Below are positions 14,860 to 23,315 of a stretch of 64,000 bases of DNA, in pieces. How positions within the stretch are numbered: position 1 is the stretch's first letter; each line of letters begins with the position of its first letter. Below the pieces are notes generated by a model. The model was not told where the DNA came from and ran no database searches. It was given only the letters and a program-made list of their open reading frames with translations. The stretch comes from Sphingomonas sp. MA1305 (GTDB taxonomy: Bacteria; Pseudomonadota; Alphaproteobacteria; Sphingomonadales; Sphingomonadaceae). A program made the position numbers and the translations under genes. The stretch is taken from positions 1-64,000 of the forward strand of contig NZ_RCVT01000002.1 in NCBI RefSeq assembly GCF_016107325.1, written 5' to 3'.

Positions 14860-15105
14860 ATGACCTATCATGCCAAAGTAATCGCCGGCGGCAAGGTGGT
14901 GATCCCTGCCGACATCCGTCGTGACCTCGGCATCAAGGACGGCGATTCGCTGGTCGTCGATCGGACGGACGACGGCGGCGTGCGGTTGATGACCTTTGAA
15001 CAGTCTGTACGCAATGCGAAGGCCAGGGCGCGCGCGATCTTCGGGGACGACTATACGGTCGACACCTTTCTCAAAGAACGCCGCGCCGACTGGGGCGAGG
15101 AATGA
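14860..15105 (+). CDS. vapB: AbrB/MazE-type antitoxin (VapB)
   Basis: An 81-residue DNA-binding antitoxin. The N-terminal half (TYHAKVIAGGKVVIPADIRRDLGIKDGDSL) is a SpoVT/AbrB swapped-hairpin domain, and the C-terminal half is a toxin-binding tail. The ATG at 14860 has GGAG about 8 bases upstream; an upstream ATG at 14839 has no such site. It overlaps vapC by ATGA. Codon use is less GC-biased than in neighbouring genes (GTA, CTA and ATA appear across the pair), consistent with horizontal acquisition. Confidence 0.9.
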   Translation: MTYHAKVIAGGKVVIPADIRRDLGIKDGDSLVVDRTDDGGVRLMTFEQSVRNAKARARAIFGDDYTVDTFLKERRADWGEE

Positions 15106-15488
15106 CCGCAGTCGTCGACGCGTCAGCGATAATGGCGCTGATGCTCGGCGAGTCCGGCGCGGAACTAGTGGCTACCATCGTGCGCGGCAGCCTGATGTCC
15201 ACCGTCAACATCTCCGAATGCTGTGCGCGTGGCGTAGAACGTGGGGCCAGTGCAGAAGCGGTGCTGTCGATCCTCGACGTCTACGAGATCACGACTGTTC
15301 CGTTCGATCTTCCTCTCGCACTCAAGGCGGCAAGCCTACGCGAGCCGACACGCGCGCTGGGCGCCTCGCTTGGCGACCGTGCGTGTCTCGCCCTGGCGAT
15401 GGCACACGCGCTGCCGGTCTATACCGGCGACCGGCGTCTGGCGGAAATCGACCTCTCCCTCGGGCTCGACATCCGGCTGATCCGGTGA
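15102..15488 (+). CDS. vapC: PIN-domain ribonuclease toxin (VapC)
   Basis: A 128-residue PIN-domain protein. The acidic residues that bind Mg2+ are D6 (VVDASA), E39 (NISEC), D92 (LGDRAC) and D110 (YTGDRRL), so the nuclease site appears intact. VapC toxins typically cut tRNA or rRNA; the target here is unknown. It is translationally coupled to vapB. Its stop codon overlaps the GTG start of the next gene, a DMT transporter, so the toxin gene is chained to unrelated metabolism genes. Confidence 0.92.
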   Translation: MTAVVDASAIMALMLGESGAELVATIVRGSLMSTVNISECCARGVERGASAEAVLSILDVYEITTVPFDLPLALKAASLREPTRALGASLGDRACLALAMAHALPVYTGDRRLAEIDLSLGLDIRLIR

Positions 15489-20666: not shown

Positions 20667-21359
20667 TCACCGGCCCGAATCCAGCTGGCGGCTGAGCGTG
20701 GTGTGGAAGCCGTCGGCGAAGCGGCCCAGCGCCGCCTCGATCCGGTTCACGCCGTGGCTGAAGCGATTGTAGGCGATCACCGCGGGGATCGCCGCGAACA
20801 GGCCGATCGCGGTGGCGAACAGCGCTTCGGCGATGCCCGGCGCGACCACCGCGAGGCTCGAATTCTGCGCCTGGGCGATGCCGGTGAAGCTGCGCATGAT
20901 GCCCCACACCGTGCCGAACAGGCCGACGAACGGCGCCACCGACCCGATCGTCGCCAGGATGTTGAGCTTGTCGCTGATCCGGTCGATCTCGCCCGCCGCC
21001 GCCGCGCCCATCGCGGTGGCAAGCCGCTCGCGCGTGCCACCCTTGTCGATGCTGCCGCCCGCGGTCGATCGGCGCCATTCCTTGACGCCCGCCGCGAACA
21101 CCTTGGCCGACGGCAGATCCTGATCCGCCTCCGCCTTGTAGAAGGCGTCGATGTCCTCCGCCTTCCAGAAGTCGCGTTCGAACCGCGCCATGCCCTTGCG
21201 GATGCGGCCCAGCCGCCGGCCGAAGGCGACGATCAGCGTCCAGGTCCAGATGCTGGCGAGCAGCAGCCCCGCCATCACCACCTTCACGACGATGTCGGCC
21301 TGAAGGAACAGCGCGACCGGCGACAAGGTCGCCGCATCCATGTTGAACACCGGATTCAT
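20667..21359 (-). CDS. tolQ: Tol-Pal system protein TolQ
   Basis: A 230-residue MotA/TolQ/ExbB family inner-membrane protein with three membrane segments (about residues 18-40, 125-150 and 165-190). It forms the proton channel with TolR. Family strings are LATIGSVAPFVGLFGTVWGIM and the GIAEALFATAIGLFAAIPAVIAYN helix. The ATG at 21359 overlaps the ybgC stop (ATGA) and starts MNPVFNM; a longer frame upstream lies within ybgC and is less likely. Confidence 0.96.
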   Translation of the reverse strand: MNPVFNMDAATLSPVALFLQADIVVKVVMAGLLLASIWTWTLIVAFGRRLGRIRKGMARFERDFWKAEDIDAFYKAEADQDLPSAKVFAAGVKEWRRSTAGGSIDKGGTRERLATAMGAAAAGEIDRISDKLNILATIGSVAPFVGLFGTVWGIMRSFTGIAQAQNSSLAVVAPGIAEALFATAIGLFAAIPAVIAYNRFSHGVNRIEAALGRFADGFHTTLSRQLDSGR

Positions 21360-21817
21360 TCGTTGGTCCCCTGCCACACCAGGCGTTGGTAGATATCGGT
21401 CCACGCGGCCGGCTGGCGCCGGGGACGGCCGTTGCCGGCGACCAAGGCCGCCGTCACCTCCGCCTCGGTCAGAACAAGCGGACCGCGCCTGACTGTTTGA
21501 TGAATGACGACGCTCGCCGCGCGCACGATGCCGACGCGGCTGACCACCAGCAGCGCATCGTCGAGCCGCGCCGGCGCGCGGTAGCGGATGGCGAGGTCCG
21601 CGACGGCATAGGCGCCCTCGCCCGCCTCGAACACGGCGCGCTGGTCGATCCCCGCCAGTCGCAGCATCGCCGATCGCGCCCGCTCCATGAAGCGCAGATA
21701 ATTCGCATGGTAGACGACGCCCGACAGGTCGGTGTCCTCGAAATAGACGCGCACCGGGAACAGGTGCTCGCGCCCCTCGAACCGTCCTGCCGTGGGCTGG
21801 TCGATGTCCTCCCGCAT
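21356..21817 (-). CDS. ybgC: Tol-Pal system-associated acyl-CoA thioesterase
   Basis: A 153-residue hot-dog-fold thioesterase. The active-site aspartate is D30 in VYFEDTDLSGVVYHANYLRFMER, the YbgC signature. Family members hydrolyse short-chain or aromatic acyl-CoA and are always linked to tol genes. The ATG at 21817 is preferred to a TTG two codons earlier. It is the first gene of the tol-pal operon and shares its upstream region with a divergent operator-bearing gene pair. Confidence 0.95.
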   Translation of the reverse strand: MREDIDQPTAGRFEGREHLFPVRVYFEDTDLSGVVYHANYLRFMERARSAMLRLAGIDQRAVFEAGEGAYAVADLAIRYRAPARLDDALLVVSRVGIVRAASVVIHQTVRRGPLVLTEAEVTAALVAGNGRPRRQPAAWTDIYQRLVWQGTNE

Positions 21818-21894
21818 AGGCAAGCGCCGTTAACCCAACCGGACGGGCCGCGAAACCCCGTAGGCGCCACCGCGCTCAGAAAGCGCTTGACCGA

Positions 21895-21930
21895 TGTAAC
21901 GCATGGGTTACATGTAACCCACAGGTTACA
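21895..21930 (+). promoter_or_regulatory. Two abutting 18-bp palindromic operators
   Basis: TGTAACGCATGGGTTACA (21895-21912) is followed without gap by TGTAACCCACAGGTTACA (21913-21930). Each has TGTAAC half-sites facing each other, giving four half-sites in 36 bases. The second site runs into the Shine-Dalgarno of the gene starting at 21941. The arrangement fits two dimers of a small XRE repressor, such as the one encoded at 22357, and could also touch the divergent tol promoter. Confidence 0.8.
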
Positions 21931-21940
21931 GGAGGATGCA

Positions 21941-22360
21941 ATGGACACGATCGAACTGGCGGAACGCAAGAGCCGTGCCTGGGCGCTGATGCTCTATGTT
22001 TTGGGGGCGGTGCTGCTGCTGTCGCAGCTGGCCGGCATGACGGTGATGCGCCGCGACTTCGTCGACGGCTTCTGGCTCGGCGTTGCCCTGGTCTGTGCGC
22101 TGACGCTGCTGCCGTGGCGGCGCTGGCTGAAGCCGGACAGCGCGCTCAACCGGCTGATGGAGGACGAGGTGGTGCGCGAACACCGGCGGATGAGCTGCAC
22201 CGCCGGCTTCTGGGCCAGCCTCGCCGCCGCGCTGGCGACCGCCCCCTTCGCGCATGACGCGATGCTGGCCAGCTACGACGTGTCGCGGGTGGTGGCGACC
22301 GCCGGCCTGTTTGCGGCGATGATCAGCTTCGCCACGCTCGAGCTGCGCGCTGCGCGATGA
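21941..22360 (+). CDS. Hypothetical four-helix membrane protein paired with an XRE regulator
   Basis: A 139-residue protein with four hydrophobic segments (about 14-34, 43-60, 86-103 and 115-134) and a soluble hinge containing LMEDEVVREHRRMSC. No family name is recognised. The start ATG at 21941 has AGGAGG 6-7 bases upstream, overlapping the second operator palindrome. It overlaps the XRE gene by ATGA, so the two are one unit. Small membrane protein/XRE pairs of this shape occur in sphingomonads, but the role is not established. Confidence 0.8.
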   Translation: MDTIELAERKSRAWALMLYVLGAVLLLSQLAGMTVMRRDFVDGFWLGVALVCALTLLPWRRWLKPDSALNRLMEDEVVREHRRMSCTAGFWASLAAALATAPFAHDAMLASYDVSRVVATAGLFAAMISFATLELRAAR

Positions 22361-22566
22361 GCGAGCTGCACAACAGCCTCAAGGAGGAGCGCGAGCGGCT
22401 CGGCCTGACTCAGGCCGCACTCGCCGAACGGGCCGGGGTCAGTCGCAAGACGATCAACACGGTGGAGAACGGCGTCTTCATCCCCTCCACCGTGCTCGCG
22501 CTGCGGCTGGCGAAGGTGATCGGCCGACCGGTCGAGGCGCTGTTCCGCCTCGCCGAGGATCATTGA
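22357..22566 (+). CDS. XRE family transcriptional regulator
   Basis: A 69-residue protein that is nearly only a Cro/CI-type helix-turn-helix (recognition region LTQAALAERAGVSRKTINTV, residues 17-36), similar to small YozG-like regulators. It is coupled to the membrane protein gene by a 4-base overlap. The tandem 18-bp palindromes before the pair are the obvious binding site, implying autoregulation. Its last codons overlap the 3' end of the convergent lipoprotein gene by 7 bases. Confidence 0.92.
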   Translation: MSELHNSLKEERERLGLTQAALAERAGVSRKTINTVENGVFIPSTVLALRLAKVIGRPVEALFRLAEDH

Positions 22567-23315
22567 GCGACGGCGGTGTCCATCAGCGCGCGCGTGTCGA
22601 GCTCCAGCCGCGGCCGCGCCGAGACCGGCTCCGCCGCCGGCACCGCCTGCACCGTGCGGACGCCGGCCGGCACCACGACGTTGGCCATCGCCAGCTGGTT
22701 CAACCGCAGGCGATCCGTGCGCCATGCATCGTAAGCGGCGTAGAAATTGGTGAACGGCTTTTCCAGCACCGCCAGCCGCCCGGCGGCGAAGGCCGGCAGT
22801 TCCGCCGCGGTGACGCCCTGCACGTCGGCCAGCGTCGCCGCCGCCGCGGCGCAGAAGCCCTCGCGCGCCGGAGCCTGGCTGAAGAAATTGTAGAGCCGCG
22901 TCATCGCGTCGTCGTATCGTTCCTGCCAGTCGCCGCCCGCCGCCTTGTACTCCGCGGCATATTGCGTCTGCGCGGCCGCCAATGCGCTCTTCTGGCTGGT
23001 TAGCAACCCGTTGTATTCGCTGACGATCGTCGCGGCATTGTCGCCGCGGCAGGCGAGCGCCGCGACGTTGAGCGCGGCGCGCAGGTGCCACAGCGTCGCC
23101 GCCGGCGTCAGGCCGCGGTTGGGCGTGGCATACAGGCCGTCGGCCAGCCGTGCCGGTACCGGCATGCCCGGATAGGCACCCCTCGGCAGCGGCACCGCGA
23201 CCGGCGCGGGCGCGGGCACGGTCGCCACGACCGTCGGCGCCTGCACCGCACGGCGGGTCGCGCAACCAGCGGTCAGGGCCAGCATCGTCATGGAAATGGC
23301 AATCGAGCGGCGCAT
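22560..23315 (-). CDS. Hypothetical lipoprotein
   Basis: A 251-residue protein with a lipoprotein signal: MRRSIAISMTMLALTAGC, with the lipobox cysteine at residue 18. A Pro/Val/Ala-rich linker (about 25-50) follows, then a mostly helical Ala-rich domain (about 60-200). Two further cysteines occur at about residues 89 and 154 (LACRGDN and EGFCAAA), possibly a disulfide. No family is recognised. The long gap upstream (23316-23707) would hold its promoter. Confidence 0.75.
   Translation of the reverse strand: MRRSIAISMTMLALTAGCATRRAVQAPTVVATVPAPAPVAVPLPRGAYPGMPVPARLADGLYATPNRGLTPAATLWHLRAALNVAALACRGDNAATIVSEYNGLLTSQKSALAAAQTQYAAEYKAAGGDWQERYDDAMTRLYNFFSQAPAREGFCAAAAATLADVQGVTAAELPAFAAGRLAVLEKPFTNFYAAYDAWRTDRLRLNQLAMANVVVPAGVRTVQAVPAAEPVSARPRLELDTRALMDTAVAQ

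Follow-up and report, generated by a model that had tools for sequence, protein, structure and literature searches.

A 36-bp element in Sphingomonas sp. MA1305, made of two abutting 18-bp palindromes, is very probably the operator of a two-gene operon that encodes a small membrane protein and an XRE regulator, with one XRE dimer on each palindrome closing the promoter and repressing the regulator's own operon. This reading is based on the conservation of the sites, their register and the position of a TTGAC motif, on the uniqueness of the element in its genome, and on an exchange of operator type with recognition helix; from these we infer the promoter itself, XRE binding, repression and the cooperative filling of both sites. 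The element lies in a 64,000-nucleotide stretch of DNA, the window, with the following features.

21356..21817, minus strand: divergent ybgC-type thioesterase gene (tol-pal neighbour), outside the switch on present evidence
21887..21892, plus strand: putative -35 hexamer TTGACC, from the sequence and the conserved position of TTGAC in relatives
21895..21912, no strand: palindrome 1, TGTAACGCATGGGTTACA, read from the sequence and kept in homologous loci
21904..21921, no strand: central dyad TGGGTTACATGTAACCCA, a perfect dyad arising from the palindrome junction
21908..21914, plus strand: putative -10 region TTACATG at the palindrome junction, predicted from the conserved TTGAC and the variants in relatives
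21913..21930, no strand: palindrome 2, TGTAACCCACAGGTTACA, read from the sequence and kept in homologous loci
21930..21935, plus strand: Shine-Dalgarno sequence AGGAGG of the membrane protein gene, from the sequence
21941..22360, plus strand: gene for a 139-residue membrane protein with four long helices and no Pfam family (open reading frame with ATG start, Pfam, structure model)
22357..22566, plus strand: gene for a 69-residue XRE (HTH_3) regulator with recognition helix SRKTINTVE (open reading frame, Pfam, CylR2 match)
22560-23315, minus strand: 251-residue open reading frame beyond the XRE gene, with no Pfam match at E <= 0.01

In the proposed switch, a dimer of the 69-residue XRE would bind each 18-bp palindrome (TGTAACC-N4-GGTTACA, a 7-4-7 geometry). 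Filling of both palindromes would close the proposed promoter, whose -35 (TTGACC) starts at 21887 and whose -10 lies at the junction, and by this closure the XRE would repress its own operon.

The preliminary description of this DNA had reported exact, back-to-back 18-bp palindromes, and we found them precisely so, with 0 mismatches and a gap of 0 bp, an arrangement far beyond chance. Across the 4,038,741-base genome, exact TGTAAC-N6-GTTACA occurs only as palindromes 1 and 2, and its backwards version has 0 occurrences. When the genome was scanned with TGTAACC-N4-GGTTACA, the pair scored 0 and 1 mismatch, no site had 2, and 17 other sites had 3, compared with 31 matches to the reversed control at up to 3 mismatches. 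Beyond the two sites there is thus no excess over the reversed pattern, which indicates a local element and not a regulon-wide box. The central dyad probably just follows from the abutment of the two sites; we rejected it as a binding unit because the distance between palindromes varies (17, 18, 19, 20, 21, 27, 32-35 or 39 bp) while 7-4-7 within each is kept, the latter geometry being an assumption of the scan that measured the spacing. Palindrome 2 ends 10 bp before the ATG of the membrane gene (21941). The overlap of the last half-site with the Shine-Dalgarno sequence, also described earlier, is real for one base only (A21930 of AGGAGG, 21930-21935), and the distance from last half-site to start codon is variable among relatives.

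The absence of the palindromes upstream of homologous pairs had been named as a refuting test. When it was run, 115 of the 131 pooled loci had tandem palindromes ahead of the homologous pair or of the XRE, compared with 0-4 of 131 for 12 scrambled half-sites, so their assignment as the operator of the membrane protein/XRE pair stands. These loci (L003-L021, L034-L062, L065, L069, L070 and L073-L152) were pooled from searches by XRE similarity, by membrane-protein similarity and with an XRE profile in named genomes; some are duplicated, and since they share descent and were sampled by similarity, the counts are not independent events. Outside the pool stand L022-L032 (weaker XRE matches with a Q-helix or an incomplete XRE), L071 and L072, which were used for comparing helix and operator where the XRE was readable, and the later additions L173-L204. 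The register of the tandem loci ranges from 15 to 39 bp and is exactly 18 bp in 84 of them, representing 73 distinct sequences.

Each search contributed in its own way. XRE similarity gave a match in 74 of 199 family genomes, and we read the loci of the 30 best: 17 of the first 19 (L003-L021) have tandem sites, absent in L013 and L017, and the 11 weaker ones (L022-L032), with Q-helix or incomplete XREs, are without TGTAACC sites. In each of the 29 membrane-similarity loci L034-L062, the cluster includes an XRE with an SRK helix, and operator sites precede its first membrane gene. Among the irregular cases, L062 and L007 have a site 2 with a degraded left half, the XRE of L062 precedes the matched, second membrane-gene copy, and L060 has a 20-bp register and a poorer site. 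The XRE profile, searched in GTDB contigs, matched 369 relatives, of which the best 80 supplied the named loci. Within 1100 bp upstream, 75 of these 80 have at least one palindrome in which no more than 3 of 14 positions mismatch (0-12 of 80 for 12 scrambled half-sites); an earlier single-site scan at 4 mismatches was loose and was repeated at 3 with controls. At that threshold no palindrome was found for L097, L101, L106, L125 (almost no upstream DNA) and L136. The tandem pattern was missed in 16 of the 131 pooled loci. Both sites are present at L122, beyond the scanned range; eight loci have one palindrome only (L110, L117, L119, L129, L138, L141, L148 and L150); L125 offers hardly any DNA ahead of the gene; and no palindrome passed at L013, L017, L097, L101, L106 and L136.

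The reverse search, from operator to gene, led to the same regulators. An exact 24-letter operator pattern matched 10 distinct sites in 10 of 396 order genomes, its reversed form matched 0, and all 10 sites lie 211-552 bp before an XRE with the SRK-helix signature. Most variants escape so strict a pattern, and 10 of 396 should not be taken as a prevalence. Beside these sites we read 13 chosen loci from the genus membrane-profile matches. Both the pair and its operator are found outside Alphaproteobacteria as well, with cultured Paenibacillaceae among the carriers.

On its divergent side the pair has ybgC- and TolQ-type neighbours, the ybgC open reading frame scoring 137.7 bits, just under the cut-off of 141.35, against the TIGR02799 ybgC equivalog. 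The preliminary description had supposed an effect of the shared gap on the envelope genes of tol-pal. In favour of sites that mainly serve the divergent ybgC-tol-pal operon, the adjacency is conserved within the genus, with YbgC across from the pair in 26 of the 29 loci L034-L062. In the pooled loci, however, YbgC occurs in 46 of 131 (always on the operator side) and RuvB in 20 of 131 (always beyond the XRE), and 78 of 131 have none of YbgC, TolQ and RuvB within the DNA read while the tandem pattern fails in only 16. Moreover, 156 of 201 genus genomes lack a membrane-profile match, which also speaks against tol-pal as the target. We consider envelope control as the main role highly improbable, and the supposition fails as it was worded: tol-pal adjacency is a local feature, and the operator is that of the pair. 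In the host strain itself, some influence on the divergent ybgC promoter is a local possibility.

The location of the operator on a promoter we derive from the position of TTGAC. TTGACC starts 8 bp before palindrome 1, and among the 73 distinct 18-bp operators a TTGA or TTGC starts 7-10 nt before palindrome 1 in 71, with exact TTGAC before it in 49. Such a position places the -10 near the palindrome junction. A consensus promoter scan gave no sigma-70-type promoter at the operator; the proposed -10 (TTACAT/TACATG) is poor and the spacer would be 15-16 bp. At the -10 place, relatives carry GTTACATG in 48 of 73 operators, with the variants GTATCATG, GTGATATG and GTTATATG, and some Paenibacillaceae loci have TATAAT there. 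The junction sequence gives the impression of a compromise between a half-site and a -10. Two main layouts exist, with TTGAC either just before palindrome 1 or within it and palindrome 2 lying 32-35 bp on; the second (TGTAACC-TTGAC-GTTAC) is found mostly in Rhodobacteraceae and other Alphaproteobacteria. In both, two dimers would cover the promoter. At 12 loci (L093, L100, L107, L114, L116, L121, L124, L126, L145, L146, L151 and L152) TTGAC is the centre of palindrome 1 (mostly TGTAACCTTGACGTTAC), and palindrome 2 follows 32-35 bp further on.

These data also bear on translational control, in which the inverted repeats would form leader RNA hairpins that hide the Shine-Dalgarno sequence, as the perfect dyads abutting the ribosome binding site in the host might suggest. 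Exact TGTAACC is found, out of 73, in 24 L1, 29 L2, 54 R1 and 40 R2 half-sites; left halves much more variable than right ones are unlike the needs of paired RNA arms. The distance between palindromes jumps between 18, 21 and 32-35 bp, and in the second layout palindrome 1 would be untranscribed if TTGAC is the -35. RNA hairpins are therefore scarcely credible as the function of the repeats. Since the operator sits on the inferred promoter, the encoded XRE is best read as an autorepressor. Cooperativity between dimers, claimed in the preliminary description, is plausible given how frequent the 18-bp register is; this register corresponds to 1.7 helical turns and thus to a different face of the DNA, so that a dimer-dimer contact is not obvious.

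The XRE belongs to HTH_3 (PF01381; 54.1 bits, gathering cut-off 23), and its recognition helix exchanges with the operator. Where a K follows [ST]R in the helix (RK), TGTAACC is present in 115 of 124 loci, TGTAAAG in 1 and neither in 8; XREs with a Q-helix (RQ/SRQ) have TGTAAAG in 26 of 29 loci, neither in 3 and TGTAACC in 0. The exceptions include L013, a K-helix XRE with a TGTAAAG-like site and no TGTAACC. Two of the eight K-helix loci scored as having none are L025, an incomplete XRE match, and L057, where a tandem operator is nevertheless present, more than 1000 bp before the XRE because two membrane genes lie in between. The K-helix set spans names from Sphingomonadaceae, Rhodobacteraceae, Caulobacterales and Paenibacillaceae. 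The 29 Q-helix loci all come from one family and consist of L022-L024, L026-L032 and 19 of 20 places picked from the weaker XRE-similarity matches, the remaining picked place (L158) being without an XRE by signature. A one-residue helix code is a guess, as other helix residues differ too (TVE versus AVE). At L014/L194, L122 and L141 the membrane gene is absent or largely deleted, yet the operator has stayed with the XRE. At L014/L194 (G026), operator and XRE are retained and the membrane gene between them is a short remnant. Operator type thus follows the helix, and the operator can outlast the membrane gene; both facts point to the encoded XRE as the likely ligand, ahead of the membrane protein or a foreign regulator. 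The preliminary description had named it as such, and with the operator-only search finding such XREs, it is by far the best candidate.

Two further observations concern related regulators. Many Q-helix XRE paralogs (SRQTINAVE) of the same family are directly preceded by two or three palindromes of the TGTAAAGAGCTCTTTACA/TGACAAGAGCTCTTGAC type that nearly abut, about 17 bp apart as judged by eye and uncounted (L153, L155-L157, L159, L161-L170, L024, L028 and L032). The host genome encodes a second XRE (L172, C4 near 415275-415472) with the helix SRQAVNAIE, preceded by several TGTCA/TGACA repeats that are possibly another operator class.

That a regulator encoded in trans binds the palindromes, with the XRE gene as a passenger, would draw on the size of the XRE family and on the second, distant XRE match in the host. 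Yet operator type tracks the residue in the encoded helix, the operator travels with the pair across several families and phyla in named genomes, and the host genome has no other site at up to 2 mismatches, which makes a trans-acting regulator very unlikely.

The membrane gene overlaps the start of the XRE gene by ATGA. Its product matched 0 Pfam families, and a DUF2178-like kinship, considered as a lead, was not returned by Pfam. Of 60 relatives, 18 touch DUF6442 (PF20040) at E <= 0.05 (best 0.00026); Pfam did not place the window protein in DUF6442, and a DUF6442 search of its own genome gave 0 matches, as did that search's controls. Hydrophobicity suggests a membrane location. The structure model (mean pLDDT 95.7) has long helices at 3-34, 38-55, 76-105 and 111-138, with two short helices between long helices 2 and 3. 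W45, D75, R82 and E134 are invariant in 22 same-family sequences, and R14, D75, E76 and G89 nearly invariant in 60 wider ones. By the positive-inside rule, the stretch after helix 2 (D75, E76 and R82) would be cytoplasmic and could touch the XRE. Foldseek returned no match at E <= 0.001, only generic helix bundles, and the best Z of a second fold comparison, 8.2, falls in a range that is uninformative for helical bundles. A profile search of the membrane alignment against solved structures gave weak transporter and receptor matches (best E 0.00048), which we take as membrane composition.

Presence of the membrane gene is patchy. The membrane profile matched 45 of 201 genus genomes and the similarity search 39 of 201, and a narrow profile found the gene in 9 of 147 genomes of the order and 2 of 385 of the class, the window's own among them. 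The XRE searches showed a broad spread; we read the low yield here as limited sensitivity of the narrow profile, yet it counts against a broad family. Eight genomes have two membrane-gene matches (G305, G318, G385, G208, G225, G306, G282 and G336), adjacent in most and far apart in G336. The second copy in G336 (L071) has two separated TGTAACC/GGTTACA-like sites and no XRE by signature search.

Gene order, an operator on the promoter and this patchy presence recall a toxin-antitoxin-like module, in which the membrane protein would be harmful when overproduced and the XRE an autoregulating antitoxin; the SRK XRE in the same cluster at 29 of 29 membrane-gene loci (L034-L062) and the small number of XREs without an intact membrane gene (L014, L122 and L141) fit as well. 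The membrane protein, however, matches no toxin family and no PADLOC model, the XRE falls under the NCBIfam antitoxin cut-offs (HigA, Y4mF and HipB; best 43.5 bits of 71.65), and L071 is a membrane-gene copy without an XRE by signature. We judge such a module unlikely. Separately, two overlapping open reading frames at 14860-15488 of the window, with matches to PF04014 (MazE-type antitoxin) and PF01850 (PIN domain), are likely a toxin-antitoxin pair.

A small, recurrent and apparently unstudied membrane-protein/repressor pair now has a defined operator and a predicted promoter layout; among the literature matches listed, judged by title and the start of the abstract and with most subscription journals outside coverage, there was no paper on the operator or the pair. 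Together with the natural exchange of helix and operator, these open the way to direct tests, on a DNA of 36 bp, of binding, of repression and of what the membrane partner does.

Several known systems resemble this one in part. Restriction-modification controller (C) proteins are small XRE autoregulators with paired operators. Here, the operon contains no restriction-modification genes, its same-strand unit being the membrane and XRE genes with the next open reading frame on the opposite strand, and PADLOC control-protein models match the XRE at E 0.002-0.003 only. The operators of P22 c2 are 18-bp palindromes of 7-4-7 geometry as well; c2 is a phage repressor of a different size from this XRE.

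Closer is CylR1/CylR2 of Enterococcus faecalis. CylR2, a 66-residue XRE, is related to ours over nearly its whole length (1utx; phmmer E 1.2e-7 over residues 5-64, 1.9e-15 with a profile), and in both systems a short single-domain XRE is encoded with a small suspected membrane partner. As PMC3709268 describes, the regulatory genes cylR1 and cylR2 share one common promoter that overlaps the target promoter, and induction requires CylR1, which is suspected to be a membrane protein and whose mode of action that work leaves unexplained. CylR1, compared by this description, has three predicted transmembrane helices (PMC3709268), the model here four. The helices read SRQTINGIE in CylR2 and SRKTINTVE here. 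The cyl system controls a divergent lantibiotic operon, whereas no lantibiotic or cytolysin operon was recognised adjacent to this pair, with its ybgC- and TolQ-type divergent neighbours, and the pair is not filed as a cytolysin regulator. By analogy, the four-helix membrane protein may be the sensor or anti-repressor half, releasing or holding the XRE as proposed for CylR1/CylR2, a role to which we give about even chances. More tentatively, and rather less probable than that, the pair may represent a widespread phosphorelay-free membrane-to-operator system of the CylR1/CylR2 type (Alphaproteobacteria, Paenibacillaceae and MAGs labelled Gemmatimonadetes, Saccharicenans and Gammaproteobacteria), where release of the XRE by a membrane signal would open its own promoter and a largely one-residue code would apply, K reading TGTAACC and Q reading TGTAAAG. 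A 2024 preprint calls the prevalence of CylR1/R2 in other clusters unexplored (PMC11343131).

According to PMC4405338, VanUG, a small XRE of the vanG operon, binds a pair of adjacent imperfect palindromes across the promoter and so represses its own operon. It shares with our regulator the small XRE and the two adjacent palindromes, the promoter location being putative in our case; by the same account its palindromes are of 14 bp, a second promoter is also a target, and its partner genes are a two-component system and not a small membrane protein. Given the likeness to CylR1/CylR2 and VanUG, mechanisms of this kind are already known; the breadth, the recurrent tandem layout, the exchange of operator with helix and the unnamed family of the partner appear to be new.
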